Assembly (NCBI GenBank): GCA_002730365.1
Contig: PBZZ01000056.1
Coordinates: forward strand, 1-5,079
Reading direction: 5' to 3'
DNA: 5,079 bases
Source of the DNA: Deltaproteobacteria bacterium
Lineage (GTDB): Bacteria; SAR324; NAC60-12
Made by a program: the position numbers and the translations under genes. The notes under the pieces were generated by a model. That model was not told the DNA's origin. It saw only the letters and a program-made list of their open reading frames with translations, and did no database searches. Position 1 is the stretch's first letter. Every line of letters begins with the position of its first letter. Shown here piece by piece: positions 1,128 through 4,953 of this stretch.

Positions 1128-1131
1128 GGAG
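1128..1131 (+). promoter_or_regulatory. Ribosome binding site of the MerB-like gene
   Basis: GGAG at 1128-1131 lies 7 nt before the ATG at 1139, which is normal Shine-Dalgarno spacing. It supports this start and shows that the frame holding the two internal TGA codons is set up for translation. Confidence 0.6.
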
Positions 1132-1138
1132 TAGAATC

Positions 1139-1816
1139 ATGGCTGAAGACCCTACGTTGGATAATGAAGTGAGGTACTTCATCTATCAAACCTTTATAAG
1201 TACATCAAGGCCACCGACAACCGCAGAAACTGCAAAACGATTTCAACTGCCGATTAGCAAAATAGAAAGTGCTTTCGAACGTCTTGCTGCTTCGCACGAC
1301 ATTGCACTGGCTCCTGGCAGTCACTCAATCTGGATGGCCCATCCGTTTTCTGCCTTGCCGACCAACTACACTGCCCAAATAAACGAAAAAAAATACTACG
1401 GTAATTGAATTTGGGATGTCTTTGGTATTGCTGCTATCGTGGGCAAGGATGCCAAAGGTCACACCCCGTGTGGGTGTGGAGAGTGTAATGATCATTTGAA
1501 TGTGTTGGTTGGCAAAAACCAGCTAATTACATCCGAATGGCTTGTCCATTTTGTTGTTCCTGCCAAACGGTTCTGGGAAAAAATTGGCTTCACCTGAGCG
1601 ACGATCCTCGCTTTCAGTTCGAAAGCCCATTTGCAGAATTGGCTGAAGAGAACGGCTCAGAATCATGGTGCAACGATTTCTCTCCAAACCTGCCATCAAT
1701 TGGCGATCCAGTGGTACTCTGGGCGAGCAGAAAAACATTGGGAAAGACGCTCGGTTGACTCAACACAGGCGATGTTTGCCGAAATAGGACTGACAGGGCC
1801 ATTTTGGAGTCTTTGA
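1139..1816 (+). CDS. merB: Organomercurial lyase (MerB) family protein, probable double-selenocysteine selenoprotein
   Basis: MerB enzymes cleave the carbon-mercury bond of organomercurials with two cysteines and an aspartate (Cys96, Asp99, Cys159 in the R831b enzyme). Here one frame of 225 codons runs from ATG 1139 to TGA 1814-1816, interrupted only by TGA at 1406-1408 (codon 90) and 1595-1597 (codon 153). Residues 10-70 look like the N-terminal winged-helix region. YYGN-U90-IWD matches MerB YAW-C96-ALD, with Asp93 at +3. Cys111 at +21 matches Cys117. FT-U153-ATILAFSS matches the segment around Cys159, 63 residues after the first site in both proteins. The C-terminus ends in IGLTGPFWSL, as in chromosomal MerB-like proteins. 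Other cysteines (111, 113, 116, 185) use TGT/TGC, Trp uses TGG, and TGA terminates neighbouring genes, which argues against a changed code. Hairpins after both TGAs fit bacterial SECIS elements. I infer selenocysteine at both sites. The alternative, a pseudogene with two nonsense mutations at exactly the catalytic positions, is much less likely. The true substrate may differ from organomercury. Without UGA decoding only 89 residues would be made. Confidence 0.85.
1418..1459 (+). promoter_or_regulatory. Putative bacterial SECIS hairpin for Sec90
   Basis: Starting 9 nt after the TGA at 1406-1408, 1418-1429 pairs continuously with 1448-1459 (12 pairs: 7 Watson-Crick and 5 G-U). A 2x2 internal mismatch follows, then a 4-bp upper stem (1432-1435 with 1442-1445) and the 6-nt apical loop AUCGUG at 1436-1441, which contains a GU. 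The loop begins 27 nt after the UGA, within the roughly 16-37 nt usual for bacterial SECIS elements. A competing, weaker fold pairs 1418-1427 with 1435-1444. The fold was worked out by hand, with no energy computed. Confidence 0.55.
1610..1626 (+). promoter_or_regulatory. Putative bacterial SECIS hairpin for Sec153
   Basis: GCTTTC (1610-1615) and GAAAGC (1621-1626) form a perfect 6-bp stem closing the 5-nt loop AGUUC. The loop starts 18 nt after the TGA at 1595-1597 and has G then U at its second and third positions. This fits the bacterial pattern of a short hairpin with a G near the start of the apical loop, recognised by SelB. The stem does not extend below 1610. Confidence 0.6.
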
Positions 1817-2021: not shown

Positions 2022-3953
2022 ATGGCTAAAGCTCCTTACGGTTCCTGGAAATCACCAATCAGCACGGATCTGATCGTTGCTGGTTCGATTAGCTTGTCCT
2101 CCCCTCATGCCCTGCAAAAAGGTCGCTGCTGGATTGAGTCCCGGCCCCAGGAAGGAGGACGGTCGGTGCTGGTCCAACAGGATCCAGACGGCAAGGTTCG
2201 TGACATCACACCGGCCCCGTTCAACATCAGAACCCGAGTTCATGAGTATGGAGGAGGAGCCTCGCTGATTCATGGAGACAGCATCTATTTCTCCAATTTT
2301 GCAGATCAGCAACTGTATCGACAGGGATGGGAAGATCCGGCTCCGACCCAACTCACACATGCGGAGGGCTTTCGTTTTGCGAATGGCTGTGTTGATACCC
2401 GGCGGAACCGCATGATCTATGTGGTTGAAGACCACAACGTCTCCGGGGAACCTCAAAACCTGATTGGCGCAGTTGATCTGGAAACAGGTGAGTTGTCGAT
2501 TCTTGCCAAGGGGCACGATTTTTATAGCTCCCCAGTGATCAGTCCGGACAGATTGAGGATGGCGTTCATGACTTGGGATCACCCCAACATGCCCTGGGAC
2601 GAATCGACAATCTGGGTTACTGAACTGGACGAAGCAGGCATGCCCAGAGAAATGATTCCGGTGGCAGGTGGAAAGCAAGGAGAGCAGAAGATCTCTGTTC
2701 AACAACCGCAGTTTTCAGCAACTGGAGAACTCTTTTACATCTCTGATGAGAGTGGTTACTGGAATCTGTATCGAGAGAAGTCTGGACAGAGCATATGTCC
2801 AAGAGAAGCTGAATTTGGTGGGCCTCACTGGGTGTTTGGGATGCACCACTACGAGTTTCTTAATTCAGGAAAAATCATCTGTTGCTACAGCGCAAAGAAC
2901 CTTGATCAGCTGGCCTTGCTGAATCCAGAGACCGGTGAGCTGGAAGATCTGGATCTTCCATATACCTCCATCGGGAATCTTTCTCTTTCTGGCAACAGGC
3001 TCCTGACAGTGGCATCTTCACCAACGCTTTTTCCAGAAATCATTGAAATCGAGCTCTCTACGAAAACGGTAAATACCGTTAAGACTTCCACGAATTTGGA
3101 GTTGGATCAGGCTTACCTCTCTGTTCCAGAAACGATTGAGTTCCCCACTGCGGGCAATGCTGTTTCCCACGGATTTTACTACCCTCCGACAAACCAAGAT
3201 TTTCAGGGTCTGGATGGAGAAACTCCTCCGCTGATCGTGATGCTGCACGGTGGTCCTACTAGCGCTACCCATGCAGTGCTCAGCTTCAAGACGCAGTACT
3301 GGACAACGCGTGGATTTGGGGTGCTCGACCTGAATTATCGGGGATCCACAGGATACGGAAGAGCCTACCAGGATGAGTTGATCCGTCAGTGGGGAATCAT
3401 CGATGTGGAGGACGCTGTCGCTGGGGCAGAGTACCTGGTGCGTCAGCAAAAAGCCGACCCACAGCGCCTGGCCATCCGTGGAGGTAGTGCTGGAGGCTAC
3501 ACTACACTAGCTGCCTTGACCTTCGCGGATACGTTCAAAGCAGGAGCGAGCCTCTATGGCATCAGTGATTTGGAAATCCTCGCACAGGAAACGCACAAAT
3601 TCGAATCACGCTACCTGGACCAGCTGATTGGTGACTACCCCGAAGAGGAAGAAGCCTACCGGGCCCGTTCACCGATCAATCACCTGGATCAACTTTCGAG
3701 CCCCTGCATCTTCTTCCATGGACTGGAGGATCAAGTGGTTCCTCCCAACCAGGCAGAGATGATGGTCGAAGCACTGCGGACAAAGGAGATTCCCGTGGCG
3801 TATGTGCCCTTTGAAAAAGAGCAACATGGCTTTCGTATCGCAGAGAACATCAAGCGCTGCCTAGAGCTTGAGCTGTATTTCTATTCCCGTATTTTTGGCT
3901 TCCACCCGGCAGATCTGATCGATCCGATTGTGATTGACAACCTGGAGGAATGA
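2022..3953 (+). CDS. S9 family (prolyl oligopeptidase-type) serine peptidase, 643 aa
   Basis: This is a soluble serine peptidase of the S9 clan (acylaminoacyl-peptidase/dipeptidyl-peptidase-like) that would trim short, often proline-containing peptides in the cytoplasm. The N-terminal two thirds (about residues 15-360) is a beta-propeller with repeated blades; clear strands include VHEYGGGA (73-80), which is typical of this subfamily, and the D/N-ETGEL turns at 153-157 and 301-307. The C-terminal alpha/beta-hydrolase domain (about 385-625) has the oxyanion segment HGGPT (409-413), RGSTGYG (440-446), the nucleophile elbow GGSAGG with Ser489, Asp570 in HGLEDQVVP and His602 in EQHGF, so the triad is complete. 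It has no signal peptide or membrane segment. The start is supported by the family-typical opening APYGSWKSPI, although no clear Shine-Dalgarno precedes ATG 2022. It is preceded by a 205-bp gap and converges with the HypD-like gene. The exact specificity cannot be read from the sequence. Confidence 0.93.
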   Translation: MAKAPYGSWKSPISTDLIVAGSISLSSPHALQKGRCWIESRPQEGGRSVLVQQDPDGKVRDITPAPFNIRTRVHEYGGGASLIHGDSIYFSNFADQQLYRQGWEDPAPTQLTHAEGFRFANGCVDTRRNRMIYVVEDHNVSGEPQNLIGAVDLETGELSILAKGHDFYSSPVISPDRLRMAFMTWDHPNMPWDESTIWVTELDEAGMPREMIPVAGGKQGEQKISVQQPQFSATGELFYISDESGYWNLYREKSGQSICPREAEFGGPHWVFGMHHYEFLNSGKIICCYSAKNLDQLALLNPETGELEDLDLPYTSIGNLSLSGNRLLTVASSPTLFPEIIEIELSTKTVNTVKTSTNLELDQAYLSVPETIEFPTAGNAVSHGFYYPPTNQDFQGLDGETPPLIVMLHGGPTSATHAVLSFKTQYWTTRGFGVLDLNYRGSTGYGRAYQDELIRQWGIIDVEDAVAGAEYLVRQQKADPQRLAIRGGSAGGYTTLAALTFADTFKAGASLYGISDLEILAQETHKFESRYLDQLIGDYPEEEEAYRARSPINHLDQLSSPCIFFHGLEDQVVPPNQAEMMVEALRTKEIPVAYVPFEKEQHGFRIAENIKRCLELELYFYSRIFGFHPADLIDPIVIDNLEE

Positions 3954-3999: not shown

Positions 4000-4953
4000 C
4001 TATTCCACAGGATATTGTTTTCCTGGCCATCTGTTCCACCATCGTTCAAACAAAGCCAACTGGCTCGCCGCAAAATCTTTCTGGCTTGGGCCCAGTTCAT
4101 CAAAGGCATTGAGATGGTGTTGATAGTCAGTGTCTCCCTTGAGAAACAACAGATATTTGTAGTAGAGCACAAGGTCCGGGCCTTCATCAAAAATGGATAG
4201 CGTTTTTAGGGCATCTTCGAGCTCATACGCATAGTTTTTTGCTTGGCAATCTCCGCTGAGGGCCATTTGGCAGAGTGCAAACAACTTCAGTACGGGTTGT
4301 GGCAGAACGTTGCCAACCCCAGTAATCAATCCAATGGCGCTACATCGAAGTACTCCGTGGCAAACTTGGGTATCGACCCCAACCAGTAGTTCCAGCTCTT
4401 CCTCCCCGCTGGTGATGTGTTCTGCAGCGTAATTCAGCGCCTCAGCGCCTCCAAATTCTTTGAATCCAACAAGATGCGGGTAATCTTTCCGTAAATCAAA
4501 AAACAACTCTGCTTTCGTTTCAAATCCATAGTACGGACTGTTGTAAATAATGGATGGAAGATCAATCCCAGCTTCCAAAACCGCAGCCAGATGAGCTCTT
4601 TGAGCTGTGGGTGAAGTGCCCCTGGAGAGGACCCTGGGAATGATCATCAACCCTCTTGCCCCACTAGCCTTTGCATGGACAGCGTGAGCTACTGCGTTCT
4701 GAGTATTTTGAGCACCAGTTCCCACAATGACTGGAAGACCAGCTTCGATCAGGGCATTCACTCCGTGGCGGCGATGCTCCTCAGAAAGTAACGGCCAGTC
4801 CCCCATTGATCCACAGTACACCACTGAACTCATCCCTTCTTCAACCAGCTCCTGGCCTTTGCGGACTAGCGCATCAAATTTGGGGCTGCCAGATTCGTCG
4901 CAGGGAGTCATCAGGGCTGGAATACAACCATAAAACGTGTGTGGTGACTTCAT
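4000..4953 (-). CDS. DapA/NAL-superfamily enzyme, probable pyrroline-4-hydroxy-2-carboxylate deaminase (HypD-like), 317 aa
   Basis: This is a class I (Schiff-base) aldolase-fold TIM barrel. Lys165 in LVGFKEFGG is the Schiff-base lysine and Tyr137 in IIYNSPYYG is the conserved tyrosine. The substrate-binding loop usually seen as GTTGE in DapA reads GSMGD (48-52) followed by WPLL, so true dihydrodipicolinate synthase activity is unlikely. The segments IPALMTP (11-17), VVYCGSMGDWPLL (44-56), IPRVLSRG (105-112) and FDEGPDLVLYYK (255-266) match from memory the subgroup that includes the rhizobial HypD, which deaminates and dehydrates pyrroline-4-hydroxy-2-carboxylate to 2-oxoglutarate semialdehyde in trans-4-hydroxyproline catabolism. 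Function is inferred from this resemblance; no other hydroxyproline gene lies in the window. Length is normal for the family. ATG 4953 fits the family start; only a weak GAG lies upstream. It converges with the S9 peptidase (46 bp between stops), with no evident terminator there. Confidence 0.88.
   Translation of the reverse strand: MKSPHTFYGCIPALMTPCDESGSPKFDALVRKGQELVEEGMSSVVYCGSMGDWPLLSEEHRRHGVNALIEAGLPVIVGTGAQNTQNAVAHAVHAKASGARGLMIIPRVLSRGTSPTAQRAHLAAVLEAGIDLPSIIYNSPYYGFETKAELFFDLRKDYPHLVGFKEFGGAEALNYAAEHITSGEEELELLVGVDTQVCHGVLRCSAIGLITGVGNVLPQPVLKLFALCQMALSGDCQAKNYAYELEDALKTLSIFDEGPDLVLYYKYLLFLKGDTDYQHHLNAFDELGPSQKDFAASQLALFERWWNRWPGKQYPVE

Follow-up and report, generated by a model that had tools for sequence, protein, structure and literature searches.

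We describe a gene at positions 1139..1813 (+) of a 5,079-nucleotide stretch of DNA, here called the window (contig PBZZ01000056.1 of a Deltaproteobacteria bacterium), which encodes a protein with the fold of the organomercurial lyase MerB in 225 codons, two of them in-frame UGA codons (90 and 153) at the positions of the two catalytic cysteines. MerB is the textbook enzyme for methylmercury breakdown, and its two catalytic cysteines are regarded as fixed. By sequence tests the window gene is a double-selenocysteine (Sec, U) member of the MerB family, a classification supported by translation, profile match, predicted structure and substitution rates, and we consider it quite probable that this stand-alone gene, both UGAs likely being read as Sec through SelB and tRNA-Sec, encodes an organomercurial or related organometallic lyase.

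MerB fold and catalytic positions

The earlier note on this DNA had claimed a single frame interrupted by TGA codons at 90 and 153, family-like sequence before, between and after them, and the residue spacings of MerB, and all of this is borne out. Translation with TGA read as U gives one frame, with the two predicted Sec codons at 1406..1408 (+) and 1595..1597 (+), Asp93 (GAT) at 1415..1417 (+) and the cluster Cys111-Gly-Cys113-Gly-Glu-Cys116 at 1469..1486 (+); the spacings are +3 for U90-D93, +63 for U90-U153 and +21 for U90-C111. The PF03243 profile matched residues 70-193 with 73.3 bits against a gathering cut-off of 27 (E 2.3e-20) and therefore covers both sides of both TGAs, as alignments to the MerB and MerB2 entries of the PDB also do.

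The structure model of the window protein revealed a mean predicted local distance difference test (pLDDT) score of 96.5, and its best solved matches were MerB and MerB2 entries, filling the first 11 places in Foldseek and the first eight in VIA-align. In the sequence alignments to solved MerB and MerB2, residue 90 lies on the first catalytic cysteine (Cys96 of MerB), residue 93 on the acid position (Asp99), residue 111 on Cys117, and residue 153 on the second catalytic cysteine, without a gap in the case of MerB2. A phmmer alignment with MerB of plasmid R831b displayed a one-residue gap beside residue 153, where Cys159 or Cys160 are both formally possible counterparts; Cys159 is preferred, as both the spacing of +63 and the alignment to MerB2 indicate. 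Among the canonical residues, the Asp and the equivalent of Cys117 are kept, and both catalytic Cys codons are UGA.

Exchange of UGA and cysteine codons among relatives

Homologs with 40-93% identity are encoded at seven loci of named genome records (three Deltaproteobacteria and one each of Desulfobacteraceae, Anaerolineae, Longimicrobiales and Acidimicrobiia); L001-L003 share 87-94% protein identity with the window. All seven have TGA at 153 and five have it at 90, where the other two, L006 and L007, encode Cys. In a wider survey, PF03243 gave hits in 61 of 298 genomes from the phylum of G006, 50 of 395 from that of G004 (the Desulfobacteraceae record), 12 of 52 from that of G001 and 41 of 301 from that of G005, and alignment A1, searched in 58 relatives of G001, gave 11 hits. 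Nine partial or weak PF03243 places were left out, and the fetched loci together with the window gave 213 aligned hits, of which 187 were distinct after 26 identical or contained rows had been dropped.

Among these 187 sequences, TGA was found at column 153 in 104 and at column 90 in 51, so that 155 of the 161 in-frame stops inside the domain fall on the two columns. Stops elsewhere numbered 22, comprising 16 close to the C-terminal end, from column 281 onward, and six inside the domain (one TGA, five TAA or TAG). The residues at 90, 93 and 153 were most often C/D/U (51), C/D/C (49), U/E/U (31) and U/D/U (18), followed by C/E/C (11), C/C/C (8), C/E/U (2) and U/E/gap (2), the other 15 rows being partial or odd; U90 was never seen together with C153. 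Apart from a single Ser at column 90, the codon that alternates with UGA in genomic DNA encodes Cys, and an acidic residue at 93 was retained in all 51 sequences with U90. This exchange of TGA and Cys codons at both positions, and stops that are not scattered at random, are what the earlier note had expected of Sec, and together with SelB and tRNA-Sec in the relatives (see below) they support the double-Sec reading.

A tree of the 176 rows with both columns filled, built by a quick method with the three triad columns removed and with support from the Shimodaira-Hasegawa-like approximate likelihood ratio test (SH-aLRT) only, places at least four state changes at site 90 and at least nine at site 153, which would imply that Cys and Sec have been switched repeatedly at both sites. 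The sequences with U at both positions come in three styles, namely the window type NUIWD...GFTU, the type GQU.FESLAV...AUSTMNLFRSE, common in the phylum of G004, and AAU..D...FU..SVFFWSE. The U/E/U sequences form a distant double-UGA MerB lineage with Glu for Asp, here called UEU (L084, L085, L088, L090, L092, L093, L095-L099 and others), and the AAU..D...FU style marks a third double-UGA lineage (L186, L189, L190, L193, L211, L181, L184, L185, L191, L195). As a separate observation, a C/C/C triad, in which a third Cys replaces the acid, was displayed by L043, L048, L050, L052, L057, L063, L102 and L142, which form one branch with an SH-aLRT of 99.

The ratio of non-synonymous to synonymous substitution rates (Ka/Ks), computed for the window against four close relatives, was 0.09-0.33 in the segments 1-89, 91-152 and 154-225, and 0.06-0.33 over all ten pairs; all three parts of the gene that the UGAs delimit are under purifying selection. 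That the gene is a pseudogene in decay, or that two stops arose in it by chance as an artefact of sequencing, could be suspected from the behavior of gene callers, which halt at the TGAs (23 of 29 protein-database hits break off immediately ahead of the 153 column and one, P0019, ahead of the 90 column; P0007 and P0029 depart from the frame earlier), and from a stop that interrupts the upstream gene of the window. Both TGAs, however, are shared by five distinct genome records, which carry three different group names, and with Ka/Ks not above 0.33 in every segment this explanation is refuted in practice by the column statistics. The same negligible probability applies to a genome-wide reassignment of UGA to Trp or another residue without Sec: the public entries P0002-P0004 do show Trp at both UGA sites, as translation of TGA as Trp would produce, but the genomic exchange state is Cys rather than Trp, TGA terminates both the MerB-fold gene (1814-1816) and the next gene (3951-3953), and SelB and tRNA-Sec occur in the relatives, on which grounds reassignment was rejected.

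Regarding the gene boundaries, a Shine-Dalgarno-like GGAG was read from the sequence at 1128..1131 (+), seven bases 5' of the ATG, and the TGA of codon 226 at 1814..1816 (+) is the true stop, since homologs terminate at or near the same place with TAG (L004), TAA (L005) or TGA (L001-L003, L006). A third Sec at this terminal TGA was considered and rejected because the homologs use different stop codons there. Upstream, a DUF4174-like gene (375-635, +) is truncated by TAA at 86 codons, the corresponding frames of L001, L002 and L003 having 137 codons. Downstream, the MerB-fold gene is followed by genes for an S9-family peptidase (2022-3953, +) and a DHDPS-family protein (4000-4953, -), in an order that is the same in L001-L003. 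A search of viral contigs found no relative of the window.

Selenocysteine machinery and insertion signals

SelB exceeded its cut-off in six of the seven first genomes, and tRNA-Sec was likewise detected by ARAGORN in six of the seven. The search for selB and selC that the earlier note had proposed was run in relatives, where it succeeded for SelB in the close relatives G001-G003 and in G009 and for tRNA-Sec in G001 and G003, and failed for tRNA-Sec in G002. At L022 and L023, Rfam matches to tRNA-Sec that barely exceed the gathering score were identified by ARAGORN as tRNA-Leu, which is a pitfall for automated calls of the Sec trait.

About 12 bases after UGA 153, at 1610..1626 (+), the window carries a hairpin resembling a bacterial Sec insertion sequence (SECIS), GCTTTC[AGTTC]GAAAGC. 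With a criterion of G within the first two loop bases and a score of at least 5, such a hairpin follows position 153 in 98 of the 104 UGA sequences versus 12 of the 78 Cys sequences, its loop after UGA 153 being GGUC or AGUUC. Other examples are CTCTTCC[GGTC]GGAAGAG, TTCTTCT[GGTC]AGAAGAA and GCCTTCC[GGTC]GGAAGGC; the differing stems stay paired, which means that both sides change together, a covariation that rests on the per-sequence hairpins. RNAalifold, applied to all 104 UGA-153 sequences at a fixed offset, gave almost no consensus (-0.56), because the stems occupy two registers with loops of four or five bases. Against plain shuffles, the folding energies of UGA and Cys sequences were separated at 153 (p 3e-7) and not at 90 (p 0.12). 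In E. coli fdhF, GGTC, which we take to be its SECIS loop, was found one base closer to the UGA than in the MerB-type 153 hairpins.

For UGA 90, a candidate stem-loop with the outer stem GGTATT/GATGCC lies at 1424..1453 (+), 18-47 bases after the T of the UGA, in a consensus fold of seven sequences, and the evidence for it is weaker than at 153. The mean folding energy of this window-lineage stem was equalled by one of 200 synonymous shuffles (seven sequences, five of them near-copies), compared to four of 200 for the folding energy of the window lineage at 153. The UEU lineage displays GCTGGC-loop-GCTGGC hairpins with G-U pairs after UGA 90, and the third lineage conserved GCCCTTCGTGCAAGGGC-type hairpins after its first UGA. 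Site 153 is thus better supported by RNA signals than site 90. A permissive Rfam scan of the window returned three matches, all below their gathering scores.

Several of these results weigh against Sec decoding. The machinery of the window organism is deduced from SelB and tRNA-Sec of its relatives and not from its own genome, and in G002, where ARAGORN found no tRNA-Sec, the Rfam match is a tRNA-Leu. Of the 164 genomes in which PF03243 gave a hit, 158 were tested for selB (eight of them unclassed), and SelB exceeded its cut-off in 88 of 93 with UGA-type genes versus 44 of 57 whose genes are of the Cys type only (p 0.003), a modest contrast since most Cys-only genomes have SelB too. Five UGA-type genomes (G005, G043, G368, G472, G999) had no selB above the cut-off, possibly due to incomplete assemblies. 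As for the hairpins, the protein motif itself yields part of the one at 153 (synonymous shuffles gave a mean of 4.4 versus 6.2 observed), five of the 11 C/E/C sequences also reach a score of 5 there, and at site 90 this score was reached in only seven of 51 UGA sequences versus four of 127 Cys sequences, none of the seven belonging to the window lineage. Taking both sides together, we infer that the cell reads both UGAs as Sec.

Predicted function and comparison with known systems

In MerB, Cys96 and Cys159 bind the metal of R-Hg+ and Asp99 acts as the proton donor for the leaving carbon. By analogy, once SelB and tRNA-Sec had decoded UGA 90 and UGA 153, the metal would be held by the selenolates of U90 and U153, the leaving carbon would receive a proton from Asp93, and the carbon-metal bond would be broken. 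Organomercurial lyase is the most likely predicted function of the window protein.

The points on the other side concern the family profiles and the gene neighborhood. The window protein scores far below the cut-offs of the NCBIfam MerB equivalogs (NF009710, 26.5 bits versus 193; NF033555, 16.8 versus 200). The neighbors of its gene in the window are the S9 peptidase and the DHDPS-family gene, and when the open reading frames of L001-L007 and 16 further, longer loci were read by eye, without profile scans, neither a mer gene nor a conserved neighboring partner was recognised. MerA and HgcA were tested in 66 hand-picked genomes, and MerA exceeded its cut-off in nine of them, the four close relatives of the window not being among the nine. 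The lack of MerA above the cut-off and of a mer gene seen alongside in the window lineage would fit a double-Sec lyase of MerB fold that naturally acts on an organometallic or organometalloid compound other than one of mercury, as the name of SaoL, the MerB-like organometallic lyase of NCBIfam (NF040728), implies; indeed, two relatives with one UGA, L075 and L080, exceed the SaoL cut-off. The window protein itself, on the other hand, reaches only 31.1 bits of the required 140, and the HgcA data of the UEU lineage point to methylmercury, although no base rate is at hand and none of the four relatives in the window lineage has HgcA. We regard another natural substrate as rather unlikely, while giving it more weight than any other alternative to an organomercurial lyase.

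HgcA exceeded its cut-off in 20 of the 66 genomes. Within the phylum of G004 it was found in 17 of 24 UEU genomes, with two more partial and the base rate of the phylum not measured, in two of six genomes with U/D/U only and in one of two C/U genomes, whereas the 34 genomes of other phyla, and the four close relatives of the window lineage, had none. Methylmercury makers may carry a selenium-based lyase of the UEU lineage; the co-occurrence is a lead only, because the 66 genomes were hand-picked and no base rate is available.

A third possibility, that the MerB fold has been turned to use in a selenol redox enzyme or a metal sensor without carbon-metal cleavage, appears improbable. It would agree with the view, found in a review, that the majority of selenoprotein families in prokaryotes are believed to take part in redox reactions (PMC9312934), and the N-terminal helix-turn-helix part of the model also matches LexA, MntR and DtxR domains in structure comparison. 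The full U-D-U triad at MerB spacing and the acidic residue kept in every U90 sequence argue against it, and the N-terminal part is common to MerB itself, as MerB2 aligns over model residues 2-198.

Returning to the organomercurial lyase, we put forward tentatively, with slightly less than even confidence, that such enzymes form a widespread and largely uncounted double-Sec class in several bacterial phyla, demethylating trace methylmercury by means of selenolates at both metal-binding positions, in one lineage inside HgcAB methylators, and that they are dropped by gene callers and residue filters, whereby microbial demethylation capacity would be underestimated. A 2026 ocean survey discarded every merB sequence that lacked any of the four canonical residues (PMC12874090), and such a filter would miss the double-Sec as well as the single-Sec forms. 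Enzymes of the double-Sec type would mostly escape present searches for methylmercury-degrading microbes. The family also offers a natural series, C/C, C/U and U/U, for probing the contribution of selenium site by site. The affinity of selenolates for mercury far exceeds that of thiolates, and this very strong binding leads directly to the question of how a two-selenolate enzyme releases its product.

The earlier note had left undecided whether such a form had been described before. A one-Sec form is in print: SaoL is listed as a MerB-like selenoprotein with motif CU and one Sec, next to the statement that a small subset of selenoprotein families holds two or three Sec residues (PMC13188914), and the organic mercuric lyase MerB2 (PMC7435645, 2020) and an alkylmercury lyase MerB-like selenoprotein (PMC9312934, 2022) appear among the predicted or listed selenoproteins of two reviews. 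A MerB-like form with Sec at both catalytic sites was not found in the literature searched, outside the reach of which lie Haft and Gwadz 2023 and Haft and Tolstoy 2025, which could describe one. Since the single-Sec site at 153 is already known, the double-Sec form is the new part, within the same limits of the literature.

Compared to MerB of R831b (PDB 3f0o, 3f2f), the window protein shares the fold, with C96-D99-C159 matched by U90-D93-U153 and C117 by C111, and it differs in having UGA for both catalytic Cys codons, in an identity of 13-16% in structural alignments, in scores below the equivalog cut-offs and in a gene without a mer gene seen alongside. MerB2 (PDB 5c17) uses two Cys and has Ser at the place of Asp93. 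SaoL is similar in the UGA at the column of U153, as seen in L075 and L080 (163.5 and 148.6 bits), but these two have one Sec only, with Cys at 90, and the window protein falls far below the SaoL cut-off. A likeness in the use of two Sec is offered by the ferredoxin-thioredoxin reductase of the Global Ocean Sampling study, with two predicted Sec at both redox Cys (PMC2398784); it is an unrelated enzyme with redox chemistry, in contrast to the carbon-metal cleavage predicted for the window protein.
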